From Oscillatoria sp. SIO1A7 (GTDB taxonomy: Bacteria > Cyanobacteriota > Cyanobacteriia > Cyanobacteriales > Laspinemataceae): 64,000 nucleotides of DNA. The position numbers and the translations under genes were made by a program. How positions within the stretch are numbered: position 1 is the first letter of the stretch; each line of letters begins with the position of its first letter. The DNA is taken from assembly GCA_010672965.1 (NCBI GenBank), contig JAAHFN010000009.1, forward strand, positions 70,682 through 134,681. The letters run 5' to 3'. The notes under the pieces are model-generated. The model saw only the letters and a list, made by a program, of their open reading frames with translations, did not search any database and was not told the DNA's origin. Of this stretch, positions 39,589 to 50,755 are shown piece after piece.

Positions 39589-39747
39589 AAAGCTTTTAGC
39601 TATCAGCGGTCAGCTATCAGCCCCGAGCAATAAGCACTTTCTGCGGGAAGGGCTAGCGCCTATCAACTCTTAGCGCTCGGCGATCGGTTCCTCTGACTGC
39701 TGAGAGCTGACCGCTGACTGCCGATCGCTCACTATTAAAATTTCGTT

Positions 39748-39890
39748 CCGCGCCCCAACTCGAAAAGCATACATACATTGGGATCTAGTTCCGTAAGGAT
39801 TGTGGGTGAAAATCCCACTGAGGGCGATCGCTCTCATGGTGGAATATCAGACACGCTAGAGTTATGACAAGCTTTTCCGACTTGCGCGGA
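39748..39890 (+). ncRNA. Y-RNA-like module 1: circularly permuted tRNA-Leu mimic
   Basis: The scaffold halves CCGCGCCCCAACTCGAAAAG and AAGCTTTTCCGACTTGCGCG pair with each other. The insert holds the 3' half of a tRNA-Leu (variable arm GATCTAGTTCCGTAAGGAT, T-arm GTGGG..CCCAC, acceptor TGAGGGC). A GATC loop then leads to the 5' half (acceptor GCTCTCA, GGTGGAAT and GACACGCTAGA). The acceptor strands pair 7/7 with one G-T. The open ends of the permutation lie in the anticodon loop, where the scaffold is attached. No CCA is encoded. Confidence 0.75.
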
Positions 39891-39920
39891 GCGATTATAA
39901 AACTCTTGTAAAACCCTCAA

Positions 39921-40005
39921 CCCCGCACCCTAACAGGTAAAGCTTACATACAATTCCTTTGGTTAAGGCATCAGTGTAATAATAGCTTTGCAGACTTGTG
40001 CGGGG
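39921..40005 (+). ncRNA. Y-RNA-like module 2: short insert
   Basis: The scaffold is CCGCACCCTAACAGGTAAAG with CTTACATAC on the left and AGCTTTGCAGACTTGTGCGG on the right. The GCAC/GTGC base change is compensated on both sides. The insert of about 30 nt (TCCTTTGGTTAAGGCATCAG region) has no tRNA arms. This is the minimal version of the module. Confidence 0.6.
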
Positions 40006-40034
40006 CTATCTGCCAGAAATTGAAAGTAACACTT

Positions 40035-40152
40035 CGCGCCCCAACCGATAAAGCTTACATACTAGCTCATTGGTAGAGCATTACCCTATCACGGTAAAGG
40101 TAGTAGGTTCAAATCCTGCGTATAACAAACAGCTTTTTCGACTTGCGCGGGG
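40035..40152 (+). ncRNA. Y-RNA-like module 3: tRNA-like insert, normal order
   Basis: Scaffold left CGCGCCCCAACCGATAAAGC, right AGCTTTTTCGACTTGCGCGG. Between them lies a tRNA-like body: D-arm TAGCTCATTGGTAGAGC, anticodon arm TTACC-CTATCAC-GGTAA, T-arm AGG-TTCAAAT-CCT. The acceptor position is taken by scaffold strands TACATAC and GTATAA, which pair. The apparent anticodon ATC is not used by bacterial tRNAs and no CCA follows, so it is a mimic and not a working tRNA. Confidence 0.75.
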
Positions 40153-40209
40153 TGCCTTTCAATTTTTAACATAAATCTATTTTTCCGCAAATTAACAAAT
40201 TTAAAAAAT

Positions 40210-40223: not shown

Positions 40224-40246
40224 AATTCTTATTTTGAAGTTCACTT

Positions 40247-40370
40247 CGCGCCCCAACCGATAAAGCTTACATACTAGCTCATTAGGATTAGAGCGTTACC
40301 CTTGAACGGTAAAAGTAGCAGGTTCAAATCCTGCGTATGAAAAAACAGCTTTTTCGACTTGCGCGGGGTG
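40247..40370 (+). ncRNA. Y-RNA-like module 4: tRNA-like insert, normal order
   Basis: The scaffold is identical to module 3 across CGCGCCCCAACCGATAAAGC and CTTTTTCGACTTGCGCGGGG. The insert has D-arm TAGCTCATTAGGATTAGAGC, anticodon arm TTACC-CTTGAAC-GGTAA and T-arm GCAGG-TTCAAAT-CCTGC. The pseudo-acceptor TACATAC pairs with GTATGAA in six of seven positions. The loop triplet is TGA, but there is no long variable arm as serine tRNAs need. Confidence 0.75.
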
Positions 40371-40465
40371 CCTTTTAATTTTCAACATCAATCTACTTTA
40401 CAGCAAGTTAACAAATAACAAATTTTGTCTCTTTCCCTAACCAATTATTATTTATATTTCCACTT

Positions 40466-40587
40466 CGCGCCCCAACCGAAAAAGCTTACATACTAGCTCA
40501 TTAGGTTAGAGCAATCGGCTGTTAACCGACTGGAAAGGGTTCGATTCCCTTGTATAAACCAAAAGCTTTTTTGACTTGCGCGGGGTG
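40466..40587 (+). ncRNA. Y-RNA-like module 5: tRNA-Asn(GTT)-like insert
   Basis: Scaffold CGCGCCCCAACCGAAAAAGC and AGCTTTTTTGACTTGCGCGG. The body has D-arm TAGCTCATTAGGTTAGAGC, anticodon arm TCGG-CTGTTAA-CCGA with GTT in the anticodon place, and T-arm AAGGG-TTCGATT-CCCTT. The acceptor is again formed by scaffold TACATAC/GTATAAA and is imperfect. A tRNA finder might call it tRNA-Asn, but the acceptor and missing CCA argue for a mimic. Confidence 0.75.
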
Positions 40588-40611
40588 TTTTATTTTCGTT
40601 CTTATTTCCAT

Positions 40612-40800
40612 CTCGCACCCTAACAGATCGAGCGTACATACTCTAAATAACGGTCCTAAGGTAGCGAACATCGGGCGACCGATCTAGCGACAGCGTTGGC
40701 CATCTTACCGAGATGTGCGATCGCGTGCCCACTGCTCGGCACAAACCGAGTAAGAGCGGCCGTAAGTAATGGAACCGCTTTTTCAACTTGTGCGAGGTGC
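40612..40800 (+). ncRNA. Y-RNA-like module 6: circularly permuted 23S rRNA helix-69 segment
   Basis: Scaffold left CTCGCACCCTAACAGATCGA with GCGTACATAC, right CCGCTTTTTCAACTTGTGCG. The insert opens with TAACGGTCCTAAGGTAGCGA, the universally conserved 3' side of 23S helix 69 and the following strand. It ends with GAGCGGCCGTAAGTAATGGA, the 5' side of the same helix. The order is therefore swapped and the ends lie in the helix-69 loop. Between them is non-conserved paired sequence including TGCTCGGCAC/CCGAG and CATCTTACCGAGATG. Confidence 0.75.
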
Positions 40801-40948: not shown

Positions 40949-41109
40949 CCGCGCCCTAACTGGTAAAGCCTACACGCAATTTAACCGACTGGTCGTAGGT
41001 ACTCTTCGAGAAGGCTTCGCCAACAAATCCTACCAGCCCCGCTCATGGGGTTGTAGCTCAGCGGTAGAGCGATCGGAGTGTCAAATGCTTTGCTGACTTG
41101 CGCGGGGCA
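40949..41109 (+). ncRNA. Y-RNA-like module 8: circularly permuted tRNA mimic with T-loop insertion
   Basis: Scaffold CCGCGCCCTAACTGGTAAAG and CTTTGCTGACTTGCGCGGGG. The insert begins with a tRNA 3' half (TTTAACCGACTGGTCGTAGG, later ATCCTACCAGCCCC). A GCTCAT linker then leads to a 5' half (GGGGTTGTAGCTCAGCGGTA, GAGCGATCGG). The acceptor strands GGGGTTG and CAGCCCC pair 7/7 with one G-T. The 3' half resembles tRNA-Asn. A hairpin-prone extra stretch (CTTCGAGAAGGCTTCGCC) fills the T-loop. The open ends are in the anticodon loop. Confidence 0.72.
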
Positions 41110-41283
41110 CCTTATTAGGGAATTGGGAATTGGTAATTGGAGAGAGCCTTGATTTTATATCTCTGATTTTTCAGCTTAAAACTTAAAACTTAAAACTTAA
41201 AAATCAAAACTCTCCCATGCCCAATGCCCCATGCCCAATTTTATCCTGAGCCTGTCGAAGGGGCCCAATGCCCAAATTTTATT
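41110..41283. repeat. Repeat spacer between array modules
   Basis: AATTGGGAATTGG, AAAACTTAAAACTTAAAACT and CCCAATGCCCCATG heptamer repeats fill the space between modules 8 and 9. Similar GGGGCAT and CCCAATG repeats lie at 41425-41585 between modules 9 and 10. No coding sequence is present. Confidence 0.7.
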
Positions 41284-41412
41284 TCGCGCCCTAACCTAGA
41301 AAGCTTACATACTAGCCGAATTGGTACAGGCGACAGACTTAAGATCTGTTGGGCGCAAGCCCGTATGGGTTCAAATCCCATGTAACAAACAACAGCTTTC
41401 TCGACTTGCGCG
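41284..41412 (+). ncRNA. Y-RNA-like module 9: tRNA-Leu(TAA)-like insert, normal order
   Basis: Scaffold CGCGCCCTAACCTAGAAAGC and AGCTTTCTCGACTTGCGCG. The body has D-arm GCCGAATTGGTACAGGC, anticodon arm ACAGA-CTTAAGA-TCTGT with TAA, a class II variable arm GGGCGCAAGCCC and T-arm ATGGG-TTCAAAT-CCCAT. The long variable arm identifies it as leucine-type. It has no intron, unlike the usual cyanobacterial tRNA-Leu(UAA) gene, and no CCA or proper acceptor. Confidence 0.75.
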
Positions 41413-41598
41413 AAATTTCTAATTGGGGCATGGGGCATGGGGCATGGGGCATGGGGCATGGGGCATTGGAGAGTTTTGAGGTTTAAATTTTAAGTTAAAG
41501 ACTCAGAACTCAGAATTTTTCCCAATTCCCAATTCCCCAATTCCCCAATGCCCAATGCCCAATGCCCAATGCCCAATGCCCAATTAAAGCAGTTGTCG

Positions 41599-41712
41599 CT
41601 GCGCCCAAACCGGGAAGGCATACATACTCTCCGACAAAAAACGGTGCGCTTTGGAGAAAGCGCTGCAAGCCTGAACCAAAATAGCAGGCAAAGCCCTCCC
41701 GACTTGCGCGGC
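41599..41712 (+). ncRNA. Y-RNA-like module 10: unassigned insert
   Basis: Scaffold left GCTGCGCCCAAACCGGGAAG with GCATACATAC, right CCTCCCGACTTGCGCGGCG. The GGGAAGGC/GCCCTCCC lower stem has changed on both strands together. The insert folds into TCTCC/GGAGA, GCGCTTTGGAGAAAGCGC and GCCTG/CAGGC hairpins, and I do not recognise the parent RNA. It ends 65 bp before the first Ro gene. Confidence 0.6.
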
Positions 41713-41726
41713 GTCTTCTCTTATGA

Positions 41727-43214
<1,488 letters not shown>

Positions 43215-43536: not shown

Positions 43537-44361
43537 ATGGCAAAACAACTCAATCACGTTGACCTGTGTTTTGCGATCGATACTACTGGCAGTATGGGTT
43601 CTTTTATCCAAGCAGCCAAGCAGCAGTTGTTGGATGTCCTAAGCTTGCTGTCAGCAGACAATAATATAGATTTGCAAATTGGTTTGGTGGAATATCGCGA
43701 CCACCCGCCACAAGACAACTCGTTCGTAACCCGAGTCTATCCGCTAACGAGCAATCGGAAGCAGATGCAAAAATCTATTAATAAACTGCAGCCTCATGGG
43801 GGCGGCGATGCTGCCGAAGCAGTTTATAGCGGGGTATATGATGCTTGCGTCAAGATGAAATGGCGATCGCACAGTTGCCGCTTTGTCTTACTCGTAGGAG
43901 ATGCTCCTCCCCACGGCTTTGCTCGGTGGCTGGAAGAAATGACAGAAGAAAAAAATAGCCGCAACAGAAATAGCGACGGTTGGCCGGATGGATGCCCCAG
44001 CGGTCTAGACGTTCAGTCGGTCGCAGGCGCAGCAGAAGAAGCTCGGGTTGTAGTTCATTCTCTTTGCATGAGAAGTGACAATCTGACTGTCAAATCCTTT
44101 ACGGCGATCGCAAATGGAACCGGCGGCCAATCCGCTCTAGCCAATAATGCCAAAGATGTTATAAGCAAAATGGTCTCTATGCTAAGCAGCGAATTTCAAA
44201 ACTTGGCATTCGATCGGCAAGTTTTGGCAACTGTAGAGCAGTTTGGCAATCTCGATATTGCTCTAACCGCCGAGACTCTTAATTGCCCTCGCCTGCAAGT
44301 AGCATCTGCGATCGATCGTCTGGGCAAACGCGGTTTTTTAGCCAAGTTAGTCAAGCGGTAA
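43537..44361 (+). CDS. Stand-alone von Willebrand A domain protein
   Basis: A 274-aa protein. Residues 8-210 form a vWA domain with an intact MIDAS (DTTGSMGSF), PHGGGDAAEA for the third metal loop and LLVGDAPPH for the fourth strand. The C-terminal 60 residues (FQNLAFDRQVLATVEQFGNL, EVASAIDRLGKRGFLAK-like) look like a winged helix. It lies between the two Ro-like genes on the same strand and is not similar to their vWA domains. Its role in the locus is unknown. vWA proteins usually bind a partner protein through the metal site. Confidence 0.8.
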   Translation: MAKQLNHVDLCFAIDTTGSMGSFIQAAKQQLLDVLSLLSADNNIDLQIGLVEYRDHPPQDNSFVTRVYPLTSNRKQMQKSINKLQPHGGGDAAEAVYSGVYDACVKMKWRSHSCRFVLLVGDAPPHGFARWLEEMTEEKNSRNRNSDGWPDGCPSGLDVQSVAGAAEEARVVVHSLCMRSDNLTVKSFTAIANGTGGQSALANNAKDVISKMVSMLSSEFQNLAFDRQVLATVEQFGNLDIALTAETLNCPRLQVASAIDRLGKRGFLAKLVKR

Positions 44362-44369
44362 CCTTAAAA

Positions 44370-45990
<1,621 letters not shown>

Positions 45991-46052: not shown

Positions 46053-46376
46053 GTGGGAAAAAAATATAAAGATAAAAAGTCTAATCTTCTCTGCCAAAGG
46101 CTACAAGAAGCTCTGGAACGAGGCTCCAAGGTCTGGGTGGAAACGGAGGATAGGAGTTTCAGCGGTATCCCTATTAATTTAACCGACCAATTTGTAGAAC
46201 TGCTGGTACTGATTTCTCCCTATGAGGAGGACGATGACGATACCTACGAACGGACCACCTGGCTGCTGCGGATTTCATCCATATCGGCGATCGCTTACCA
46301 TACTGAATACTGGTCCAAGGATAAATTTGACCGCTTGATCGAAACGGATGCGATCGGCTCGCCACAAGACGATTAA
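46053..46376 (+). CDS. Small acidic protein, possibly Sm-like fold
   Basis: A 107-aa protein starting with GTG after AGAAGGA. The pattern SNLLCQRLQEALERGSKVWV, ETEDRSFSGIPINLTDQFVE, LLVLISPYEEDDDD, WLLRISSISAIAY gives a helix followed by about five strands with G at the first turn and a hydrophobic last strand. That is how LSm/Hfq-type folds look. The match is by eye and weak. It lies 62 bp after the second Ro gene on the same strand. An RNA-binding role would fit the locus, but this is inference. Confidence 0.6.
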   Translation: MGKKYKDKKSNLLCQRLQEALERGSKVWVETEDRSFSGIPINLTDQFVELLVLISPYEEDDDDTYERTTWLLRISSISAIAYHTEYWSKDKFDRLIETDAIGSPQDD

Positions 46377-46970: not shown

Positions 46971-47648
46971 ATGAATACTTTCTCAAACATCCCTCGCCAA
47001 ACTGCAAACCCGAGCGATGCGGGGGAATTCGGCAGATTTAATTATAAATTCAAAAAACAGACCGGCGGCCCGGGTCAATACGCTCATGTCATCGGTCGTC
47101 TCGAACCTTGCGAAGAATCTTTTATTTTCGAGAATCGAGTCAAAGGCGGCGATATTCCCCAACATTTTATCCCTGCTTGCGAGCGGGGTTTTCGAGAAGC
47201 AATGGATAAAGGTTTGCTGGCGGGATATCCGGTAACTGGGGTGAAAGTTATTTTAGAAGGAGGCAGCTATCACGAAGTTGATTCAAGCGATCGCGCCTTT
47301 CAATTCGCAGCCCGCCAGGGATTCTATCAAGGATTTGCCAGAGCCAATCCGATAATTATCGAACCCGTAATGCGAGTTGCAGTCGAAACTCCCAGTCAAT
47401 TTTTCGGTTCGATTCAGGGAGATCTAGTATCTCGGCGAGGTTTGCTCCTGGATTTCGAGACTCTCGGCAACAATACCGCGATTCGAGCCGAAGTGCCCCT
47501 AGGAGAAATGTTCCGCTATTCTACTTCGTTACATTCTCTGACTTCCGGTCAAGGGCGCTTTTCGATGGAATTCGCCTGCTATCGACAAGTTCCCGCTTTA
47601 GTTCAAGAGCAAGTCATACAAAAAGCTGCTGCAAGCAGGCAAAAATAG
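46971..47648 (+). CDS. Stand-alone EF-G domains IV and V
   Basis: A 225-aa protein that matches only the C-terminal third of elongation factor G. Residues 20-140 are domain IV, which mimics the tRNA anticodon arm in the ribosomal A site: GRFNYKFKKQTGGPGQYAHV, PACERGFREAMDKGLLAGYP and the tip loop GGSYHEVDSSDRAF. Residues 145-215 are domain V: IIEPVMRVAVETPSQFFGSI, GDLVSRRGLLLDFE, FRYSTSLHSLTSGQGRFSME. No GTPase domain is encoded in or near the gene. It is co-oriented with the Ro genes and sits 595 bp after the small Sm-like gene. Confidence 0.85.
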   Translation: MNTFSNIPRQTANPSDAGEFGRFNYKFKKQTGGPGQYAHVIGRLEPCEESFIFENRVKGGDIPQHFIPACERGFREAMDKGLLAGYPVTGVKVILEGGSYHEVDSSDRAFQFAARQGFYQGFARANPIIIEPVMRVAVETPSQFFGSIQGDLVSRRGLLLDFETLGNNTAIRAEVPLGEMFRYSTSLHSLTSGQGRFSMEFACYRQVPALVQEQVIQKAAASRQK

Positions 47649-47865: not shown

Positions 47866-48702
47866 ATGAGCGATATGAAAACTGCTTATAAAGTAGCCGC
47901 TTCTGCAGTCCGGCAGCGCTTTGCCGAACAGCACCCAGATGACCTAGCAATTCTCAAGCGGATTAGTGCTGGGGAAGTTGCGGTTTATTCTGGAACCTAC
48001 GATCGCGTCGAGGATATTTTGGGCTGCCTCCAGGTGCCGGTAACTATGAACCCAGATGCCAAGAAACTGAAAGCTAAGATTGTCTTTGTCAATTGTTCTA
48101 ACTCCTACGAGCAAAATTTAATTTACGCCCTAAGAAAAAAAGTGGCAGCGGGCAAATGGCTGGTTTCCTCGGACTGGGCGCTGGGTCATTTTATCGCCAA
48201 AGCTTTTCCCGATATGGTGGGCTATAACCAAGGCAGCACTGGGGATGAAGTTGTCTCCGTCGAAGCCAGTCTCAATAGTCTCTGGTCGGAAGTGGTGGTT
48301 TTGGGTGCAGATCCGCAGTGGTGGTTGGAGGGAGCCAGTCATCCTATTAAAGTGCTAAACTGGGAAAAAGTAACTATCGAAGCTGCCAGCCACGACTTGC
48401 TGGCTCGCTATAATGCGCCGGCGGTTGCTGTTAGTTTTGATTGGGGCAGAGGCCATGTCTTTCATGTTATCAGTCATTTTTGGTGCAAGCGCAGCCGCAC
48501 GCCAACGGCACGACATAAAGGCCCATGTACTGATTTTCTGAAGGCAGGGATGAAGTTGAGCGAGGAAGGAATTAAAAAAGTATTCGGGCGATCGCAAATT
48601 CAGCCCGATACTCTGAACTTCGCTCAATTACAGAGCGCCGCGACTTCAACAGAGTTAGTAGCTCAGCTTTGCGTCCGTGCCCTCAAAAATGCAAAAAGCT
48701 AG
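47866..48702 (+). CDS. Unknown protein, possible ThuA/GATase-like fold
   Basis: A 278-aa soluble protein I do not recognise with certainty. It has alternating strands and helices: DLAILKRISAGEVAVYSGTY, AKIVFVNCSNSYEQNLIYAL, GKWLVSSDWALGHFIAKAFP and AVSFDWGRGHVFHVISHFWC. A central strand leading to a D/W-x-x-G-H-F segment and a late GHVFHVISH recalls ThuA-like or class I glutamine amidotransferase-like folds, without an obvious catalytic cysteine nucleophile. GGAG precedes the ATG. It is the last co-oriented gene after the Ro, vWA and EF-G-like genes and may belong to the same functional group. Confidence 0.6.
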   Translation: MSDMKTAYKVAASAVRQRFAEQHPDDLAILKRISAGEVAVYSGTYDRVEDILGCLQVPVTMNPDAKKLKAKIVFVNCSNSYEQNLIYALRKKVAAGKWLVSSDWALGHFIAKAFPDMVGYNQGSTGDEVVSVEASLNSLWSEVVVLGADPQWWLEGASHPIKVLNWEKVTIEAASHDLLARYNAPAVAVSFDWGRGHVFHVISHFWCKRSRTPTARHKGPCTDFLKAGMKLSEEGIKKVFGRSQIQPDTLNFAQLQSAATSTELVAQLCVRALKNAKS

Positions 48703-50482: not shown

Positions 50483-50755
50483 ATGCAATGTCCCCTCTGC
50501 CAGCGCGAGGTTGAAATGCTAACCGTCCATCACCTAATTCCCAAACAAAAAGGCGGGAATAAAGGTCCTACTATCGACATTTGCCCCGCCTGCCACAAGC
50601 AAATCCATAGCTTGTTTGACAATACCCGTCTCGCCCAAGAACTCAATACTCGGGAAAAACTGGAGACAGAACCGCAAATGCAGAAGTTTCTCTCTTGGGC
50701 GAGGAAGCAAAAATCAGATAAGCGCATCCGAGTCCGCAGGAAAAAAAGAAAATAA
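50483..50755 (+). CDS. Small HNH endonuclease-like protein
   Basis: A 90-aa protein with two CxxC pairs (CPLCQ, CPACH) that hold a structural zinc and the HNH core VHHLIPKQKGGNKGPTIDIC followed by HKQIHSLF. This is a compact HNH nuclease of the type found alone in many bacteria. The C terminus is basic (KRIRVRRKKRK) and probably binds DNA. The stop is 4 bp before the start of the GNAT gene, so the two are translated from one mRNA. Its target is unknown. Confidence 0.8.
   Translation: MQCPLCQREVEMLTVHHLIPKQKGGNKGPTIDICPACHKQIHSLFDNTRLAQELNTREKLETEPQMQKFLSWARKQKSDKRIRVRRKKRK

Follow-up and report, generated by a model that had tools for sequence, protein, structure and literature searches.

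A stand-alone EF-G domain IV-V gene in a putative Ro/Y RNA cluster of the cyanobacterium Oscillatoria sp. SIO1A7

The window, by which we mean the whole 64,000-nucleotide stretch of the Oscillatoria sp. SIO1A7 genome that was analysed, contains a cluster of RNA-like units and protein genes that includes an open reading frame for domains IV and V of elongation factor G (EF-G) (Table 1). This gene has a member of protein family c7 on one side, 594 bases upstream, and a member of family c27 on the other, 217 bases downstream; all three share the strand of the two Ro-like genes. Another Ro locus, L185, has the order Ro-vWA-Ro-c27-HNH-c7-KptA and lacks the EF-G piece, and N-terminal fragments of c27 are also present at L134 and L136. 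Pfam searches recognised neither RtcB nor RtcA in the window cluster, and no RNA ligase, nucleotidyltransferase or end-processing enzyme was recognised there.

Table 1. Features of the window cluster, with positions counted from the first letter of the window.
Feature	Position	Strand	Evidence or remark
Y-RNA-like unit, no tRNA match, lead AAGCATACATAC, tail GACTTGCGCGG	39743..39892 (approximate)	+	tail motif 39879
Y-RNA-like unit, no tRNA match, lead AAGCTTACATAC, tail GACTTGTGCGGGG	39920..40008 (approximate)	+	tail motif 39993
Putative tRNA-like Y RNA unit (ARAGORN 'Asp')	40033..40155 (approximate)	+	ARAGORN, Rfam tRNA, tail motif
Putative tRNA-like Y RNA unit (ARAGORN 'Ser')	40246..40369 (approximate)	+	ARAGORN, Rfam tRNA, tail motif
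Putative tRNA-like Y RNA unit (ARAGORN 'Asn')	40463..40586 (approximate)	+	ARAGORN, Rfam tRNA, tail motif
Putative Y RNA unit, head with 23S helix 69-71 segment	about 40605..40796	+	22-nt exact match
Y-RNA-like unit, possible partial tRNA-like head	40950..41110 (approximate)	+	weak YrlA match, 40972-41099, 17.7 bits, cut-off 69
Putative tRNA-like Y RNA unit	41282..41415 (approximate)	+	Rfam tRNA, 40 bits
Y-RNA-like unit, no tRNA match	41590..41713 (approximate)	+	tail motif 41701
Ro-like protein 1	41778..43214	+	78% identity to Ro-like protein 2
vWA protein	43537..44361	+	family in 6/90 Ro loci including the window
Ro-like protein 2	44557..45990	+	structural matches of AlphaFold2 model: Ro60, Rsr, TROVE
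107-aa protein, family c7, no Pfam match	46053..46376	+	family in 19/90 Ro loci including the window
Stand-alone EF-G domain IV + V protein, 225 aa	46971..47648	+	Pfam, PDB sequence and fold matches
278-aa protein, family c27, no Pfam match	47866..48702	+	family in 5/90 Ro loci including the window
HNH protein	50483..50755	+	72-77% identity to near-Ro genes of L038 and L138

In Pfam, residues 22-126 of the IV-V protein match EFG_IV (E 4e-37) and residues 129-214 match EFG_C (E 4.5e-26), with no further family at E 0.1; about 20 additional residues precede domain IV. It aligns with residues 496-689 of the EF-G chain 2bv3_A (E 2e-53). Since this alignment begins at domain IV, domains II-III are absent, and the NCBIfam EF-G models remain far under their cut-off (best 256.5 vs 583 bits). 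An AlphaFold2 model of the protein (mean pLDDT 85, with residues 1-18 unreliable) matched EF-G domains IV-V in the PDB at E 8.5e-26, with a TM-score of about 0.5 to 0.6, probably owing to a different angle between domains IV and V. Both motifs QTGGPGQYAHV and GGSYHEVDSS are present, and in an alignment of 20 EF-G IV-V sequences Q30 is invariant and H101 nearly so, in a region that we take to be the one usually held to form the tip of EF-G domain IV.

A G domain was sought upstream of 46971. Full-length queries of the accessory EF-G type described below matched 47022-47639 and gave chance-level stretches elsewhere, and the 599 bases 5' of the gene gave no match better than E 0.22. The genome (9.08 Mb, 182 contigs) contains two full-length EF-Gs elsewhere. 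The initial annotation had described a protein made of EF-G domains IV-V only, with the two tip motifs kept and no GTPase. This description holds throughout: Pfam, the 2bv3_A alignment and the comparison of a predicted structure with EF-G, which that annotation had proposed, agree on the domain content, the motifs are as it stated, and no G domain was found by Pfam, by the full-length queries or by the upstream search.

The closest relatives of the IV-V protein belong to an accessory full-length EF-G, which we label EF-G3, with 58-64% identity over domains IV-V, as against 32-52% for ordinary EF-Gs. In a two-row profile search, EF-G3 was present in 57 of the 388 genomes of the order, in most as a protein of ~670-735 aa. 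The cut-off for this count, E 3e-66 or better, was chosen after the scores had been seen and admits one ordinary EF-G (G510:C51, L174 in the tree), yet G510 also has an EF-G3 and so the count of 57 stands. Another ordinary EF-G (L070, from G135) was excluded from the EF-G3 loci. A tree of 64 rows places the window protein within the EF-G3 clade as the sister of a second stand-alone IV-V protein, found in genome G159 (support 97/93). The G159 row has a long branch (0.79), and this sisterhood could therefore be long-branch attraction. No full-length EF-G3 was found at the E 3e-66 cut in the window genome or in G159, and the 13 other searched genomes of the window's family, all of which have Ro, gave no EF-G3-type match. 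Judged by these sequence relationships, the IV-V gene is a descendant of the accessory full-length EF-G3.

EF-G3 loci (L057-L068, L172, L173, L240-L259) are scattered across cyanobacterial families and have no conserved neighbourhood. A candidate ORF that is presumably RtcB lies near EF-G3 in two loci and is not a general neighbour. Broken copies of EF-G3 exist in G313 (L061) and G515 (L169), where remnants of the G domain are found in other frames, and a short EF-G copy in G634 runs off the end of its contig. Short copies of other EF-G types in G042 (200 aa) and G026 (151 aa) turned out to come from full-length EF-Gs that are broken, with stretches of G domain upstream, and neither has a Ro-linked family nearby. 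A phage or plasmid origin of the IV-V gene was also considered and set aside, an IMG/VR scan having given no relative. The IV-V protein matched 301 plasmid and 23 phage records, all below 60% identity (50.8% for the best listed), and among the 63 plasmid and phage rows listed the annotated records are named elongation factor G.

The two Ro-like proteins have no match to the Pfam TROVE family at E 0.1, and the sequence match to Ro is weak (E 0.006 with a single sequence, 0.027 with a profile). A Foldseek search with the model of Ro-like protein 2 returned Ro60, Rsr or TROVE chains for all of its 12 best matches (E 3.6e-12 to 5.2e-9). From this model the Ro-like proteins are predicted to be a divergent Ro family with the Ro fold, a helical ring plus vWA.

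Ro was detected in 136 genomes, and we surveyed 90 Ro loci from 88 genomes by clustering the ORFs of these loci. Recurrent families, whose members share the strand of Ro with few or no exceptions, were c1 (43 loci), a ThiF-like family c2 (42), L7/L12 (22), c7 (19), KptA (17), an AAA protein (16), HNH (10) and vWA (6). Rarer were a family that we take to be RNA-ligase-like (6), c27, EF-Ts, DUF6939 and DUF4291 (5 each). The Pfam names of these families are based on one or two members each, and the window HNH gene dropped out of the clustering through its overlap rule. The c1 family, which is on the Ro strand at every one of its 43 Ro loci, encodes proteins of ~277 aa with no Pfam or NCBIfam match (for example L069:8372-9205 and L239:7071-7901) and is also found away from Ro. 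Two further families without a Pfam match, c3 (37/90) and c5 (24/90), lie upstream of Ro (L125:8143-8868, L184:2208-2666).

Among the RNA units of the window, ARAGORN recognises three as tRNA-like and Rfam tRNA recognises four. A 22-nt segment of the unit at 40605-40796 is identical to part of the genome's own 23S rRNA, in what we take to be helix 69-71, while no Rfam family reaches its cut-off over units of this helix-69/71 type. The claim of the initial annotation that RNAs resembling tRNA and helix 69 share the locus of the IV-V gene is borne out by these matches, and both kinds of unit recur at Ro loci. Of the 90 loci, 72 have tRNA-like units with Y-type flanks on the upstream side of Ro. 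The helix 69-71 segment, allowing at most 4 mismatches in 19, is found on the sense strand in 29 loci, in none on the antisense strand, and in three when the pattern is reversed; other examples are L189:15681-15898 and L118:8792-8979. In blastn searches against each genome's own rRNA operon, 15 loci matched the helix 69-71 segment, and no other part of the rRNA genes was matched by more than one locus (L118, L117, L123). L123 (genome G372) carries a stretch of rRNA operon upstream of Ro, at a distance of a few kilobases, as 16S- and 23S-like rRNA sequence on the opposite strand.

The basal stem of the helix-69 unit covaries. Across 23 aligned units, 96.3% of the cells of its 14 pairs are paired, compared with at most 54% in slid controls, and 10 pairs have changes on both sides. 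The stem had been derived from the consensus structure of these same aligned units, which favours such a result. One of five measures, that of pair types, was reached by 48 of 500 shuffles. The alignment omits six of the 29 units, four with no recognised 3' end (L200, L219, L126, L129) and two by our own choice (L184 and L210, the latter without a clear 5' strand). We also considered whether the 3' half of the unit is a copy of 23S rRNA; its scores fall within those of shuffles, leaving this unproven. The helix-69 likeness itself is real as sequence, and we read the tRNA-like and helix-69-like units as putative Y RNAs.

Genes for translation factors are a further recurrent component of Ro loci. 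The L7/L12 and EF-Ts genes counted above, and EF-Tu genes at 3 of the 90 loci, stand beside Ro on the same strand, and 26 loci, the window included, hold a translation-factor gene of this kind, in counts that are not independent because the loci are related by descent. Example loci are L117 (6212-6604 and 6615-7865), L191 and L189. The 22 loci with L7/L12 come from seven families, and in 21 of these genomes a whole-genome search shows the Ro-linked gene and one or more further L7/L12 copies, the exception being G529, where the single L7/L12 reported genome-wide is not the Ro-linked one. G223, G045 and G578 each have an EF-Tu gene upstream of Ro, at a distance of 1.6 to 5.2 kb between midpoints, and a second EF-Tu elsewhere. 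The window genome and G159 have one L7/L12 and one EF-Tu each. In 35 control windows there was no L7/L12, EF-Ts or EF-Tu, apart from EF-Tu queries matching the GTPase of EF-G3 itself. An association between helix-69 units and translation-factor genes within the same locus was considered as evidence and rejected; p rose from 0.041 to 0.085 once the counts included the EF-Tu loci L115 and L221.

The recurrence of L7/L12, EF-Tu and EF-Ts at Ro loci means that a translation-elongation theme is not peculiar to the window. This broader pattern of extra elongation-factor genes and a helix-69-like putative Y RNA beside Ro is better supported than the case of the EF-G IV-V piece, which belongs to it as a rare member. 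The theme suggested in the initial annotation, a system built around ligands of the ribosomal A site, is therefore upheld in part: L7/L12, EF-Tu, EF-Ts and the Y RNAs recur, whereas EF-G IV-V is seen at a single Ro locus and the helix-69/factor association falls short.

The stand-alone IV-V gene of G159 provides a second case. It is intact, encodes 191 aa, has no G-domain match upstream, and lies 110 bp upstream of a c1 gene on the same strand, with GGAG preceding its ATG. Neither a tRNA-like nor a helix-69-like unit was found beside it; Ro and two tRNA-like units of G159 are on another contig. If a Ro-linked family is defined as one found in at least 10 Ro loci, both stand-alone IV-V genes (2/2, in two genomes and hence a small sample) have a Ro-linked neighbour, compared with none of the 34 other EF-G3 loci, full-length or broken, with flanks of 0.3 to 12 kb (Fisher 0.0016). 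The window counts as Ro-linked through c7 (19 loci), c27 alone (5 loci) being under the threshold. A match to family c11 in L249 was not counted, having 30% identity to a family that we judged kinase-like and that occurs on both strands; with it included the Fisher value is 0.005. As c1 is also present away from Ro in the window genome, a shared insertion site is possible.

The explanation that we favour, and hold tentatively, is that an EF-G3-derived IV-V protein has been retained as an accessory of a Ro/Y RNA cluster, as a GTPase-free binder of the A site and helix 69. It starts from the domain content, the ancestry, the purifying selection described below, the Ro-type neighbourhood, the Ro-linked gene of G159 and the recurrent elongation-factor genes; beyond a conserved gene in a Ro-type neighbourhood we infer every step of the mechanism. 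EF-G inserts its domain IV into the A site, next to helix 69. An EF-G3 would have lost its GTPase and domains II-III, and the remaining IV-V protein would have been kept at the Ro/Y RNA cluster. Because it cannot hydrolyse GTP, the free IV-V protein should bind and block rather than translocate. It could bring the Ro ring and the Y RNAs to stalled, damaged or dissociated ribosomes, tagging or retaining those that are stalled or dissociated, or might instead make direct contact with the head of the helix-69-like Y RNA; the Ro ring would thereby reach damaged translation RNAs. The Ro particle would in this way be helped in selecting or protecting the RNAs of translation that are to be degraded or repaired.

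A bolder proposal, which we regard as rather doubtful, is that the Ro particles of cyanobacteria serve the elongating ribosome specifically and that the IV-V protein is an adaptor between the Ro ring and the helix-69-like Y RNA or the A site. L7/L12 and EF-Tu are partners of the step at which EF-G domain IV enters the A site. The heads of the Y RNAs would imitate tRNA and helix 69-71, its partner on the ribosome, and the clusters would recruit spare L7/L12, EF-Tu, EF-Ts and IV-V, which bind those same surfaces. The whole would be a surveillance or repair system for translation RNAs, of a kind that we have not met in the literature. If cyanobacterial clusters do hold matched RNA and protein look-alikes of the A site, it becomes directly testable whether Ro acts on ribosomes and by which surface, and a selected, GTPase-free IV-V protein would be a natural tool for separating the binding of domain IV from the effect of GTP hydrolysis.

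The retained-accessory explanation has to be weighed against one in which the IV-V protein is real, selected and derived from EF-G but has a function unrelated to Ro, for example as a general A-site competitor or as a regulator of EF-G or its partners, and was received by chance in a Ro region that is prone to insertions in large cyanobacterial genomes. The distribution of the gene is in keeping with this. An EF-G IV-V match near Ro is found in the window only, with none in the 89 other loci and none in the 12 loci of another collection drawn partly from the same genomes; the IV-V gene and Ro of G159 are on separate contigs; and c1 occurs away from Ro. At the level of whole genomes, Ro is present in 34 of the 57 genomes with EF-G3 and in 100 of the 331 without it (odds ratio 3.4, p 3e-5), and 23 of the 57 have EF-G3 without Ro. 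Within family f33 Ro is found in 13/17 EF-G3-positive versus 11/45 EF-G3-negative genomes. This difference vanishes at 7 Mb and above (10/14 vs 6/8) and persists among f33 genomes below 6.5 Mb (3/3 vs 5/34). The association is reversed in f14 (1/5 vs 8/14), and in f28 it is 4/7 versus 2/6. These strata comprise the genomes listed by name, with at most 27 EF-G3-negative genomes, over all families, lying outside them. Co-occurrence independent of genome size and family was not found, and because the size and family strata fail we reject the genome-level association as evidence, reading genome size as its main driver. The link to Ro genes that the initial annotation had proposed to check thus appears confounded at the genome level and is confined to one locus near Ro, and it survives in the neighbourhood of the stand-alone genes. 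That contrast, 2/2 against 0/34, and the presence of L7/L12, EF-Ts and EF-Tu genes beside Ro argue against a function unrelated to Ro, which we consider somewhat unlikely.

The same list of parts, Ro-locus families with tRNA-like and helix-69 units, would also suit a decoy or antitoxin, with the free IV-V protein and the two kinds of RNA, tRNA-like and helix-69-like, soaking up ribotoxins, modifying enzymes or inhibitors whose target is the A site. No toxin gene was recognised among the proteins of the window cluster, in a search that was not directed at toxins, and the IV-V protein has diverged from EF-G3 (58-64% identity) rather than remaining an exact copy. We consider a decoy improbable.

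Broken EF-G3 copies such as those of G313 and G515 raise the further alternative that the gene is a dying remnant, a 3' half that survives by chance and will decay. The rates at the three codon positions speak against it. On a fixed tree of 34 sequences, from which L145 was dropped for a stop codon, the terminal branch of the window gene has 0.127, 0.118 and 1.08 changes per site at positions 1, 2 and 3. The ratio of third to first and second positions is 8.8 on this branch, 6.0 over the whole tree and 2.5 for G159, where constraint is weaker than in the window gene and third positions are probably saturated; for a pseudogene the ratio is expected to approach 1. The window branch is under purifying selection, and the gene does not look like a decayed fragment; on this ratio we reject a fragment in decay, although decayed EF-G3 copies are known. 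The ORF is intact and without a stop, it has no trace of a G domain upstream, unlike those of G313 and G515, and a second intact stand-alone gene exists in G159 with its GGAG before the ATG, so that we think a dying remnant very unlikely. A sequencing or assembly artefact, in which error has broken a full EF-G frame as the initial annotation had cautioned, is in practice ruled out, since nothing was found in its favour, no G-domain sequence lies upstream in any frame, the neighbouring genes are the same as at other Ro loci such as L185, and G159 provides a second stand-alone example.

The window cluster can be compared with several known systems. Its IV-V protein shares sequence, fold and tip motifs with domains IV-V of elongation factor G (fusA), and since it has neither the GTPase nor domains II-III it is no translocase. 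EF-G3 differs in being full-length and in having no Ro-linked neighbour in 34 loci, whereas the window encodes a separate 225-aa protein. With Ro60 (Rsr)-Y RNA particles the cluster shares the predicted Ro fold and putative Y RNAs with tRNA-like heads, and the helix-69-type Y RNA of cyanobacterial loci likewise has a covarying basal stem. The cyanobacterial clusters differ from these particles in their divergent Ro, their arrays of several units and their helix-69/71-like unit, and they add L7/L12, EF-Tu, EF-Ts and EF-G IV-V.

The role of bacterial Ro and Y RNAs is a long-standing question. As far as the text excerpted from each source goes, known Ro particles tether PNPase through the tRNA-like head of the Y RNA (PMC8394870), and in Salmonella the rsr and Y RNA genes sit with RtcB repair genes, while in 2020 the functions of bacterial Ro and Y RNAs were described as studied in Deinococcus only and were left open in Salmonella (PMC7790460). 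A translation-factor paralogue coupled to RNA repair is known from PrfH-RtcB, in which a paralogue of a release factor is paired with an RNA ligase; here the factor is a release factor rather than an elongation factor, and the excerpt of that paper mentions neither Ro nor Y RNA (PMC6514570). In the titles and abstract openings covered by our literature search, nothing links EF-G domains or copies of elongation factors to Ro or Y RNAs. Compared with the rsr-yrlBA-rtcBA RNA-repair operons, the window cluster has no recognised RtcB or RtcA; repair genes are found at its sister loci (KptA in 17 of 90). Ro clusters at L117 (9663-13216), L111 and L195 contain genes for a PolyA_pol-type nucleotidyltransferase, DUF4291, DUF6939, KptA and AAA proteins.
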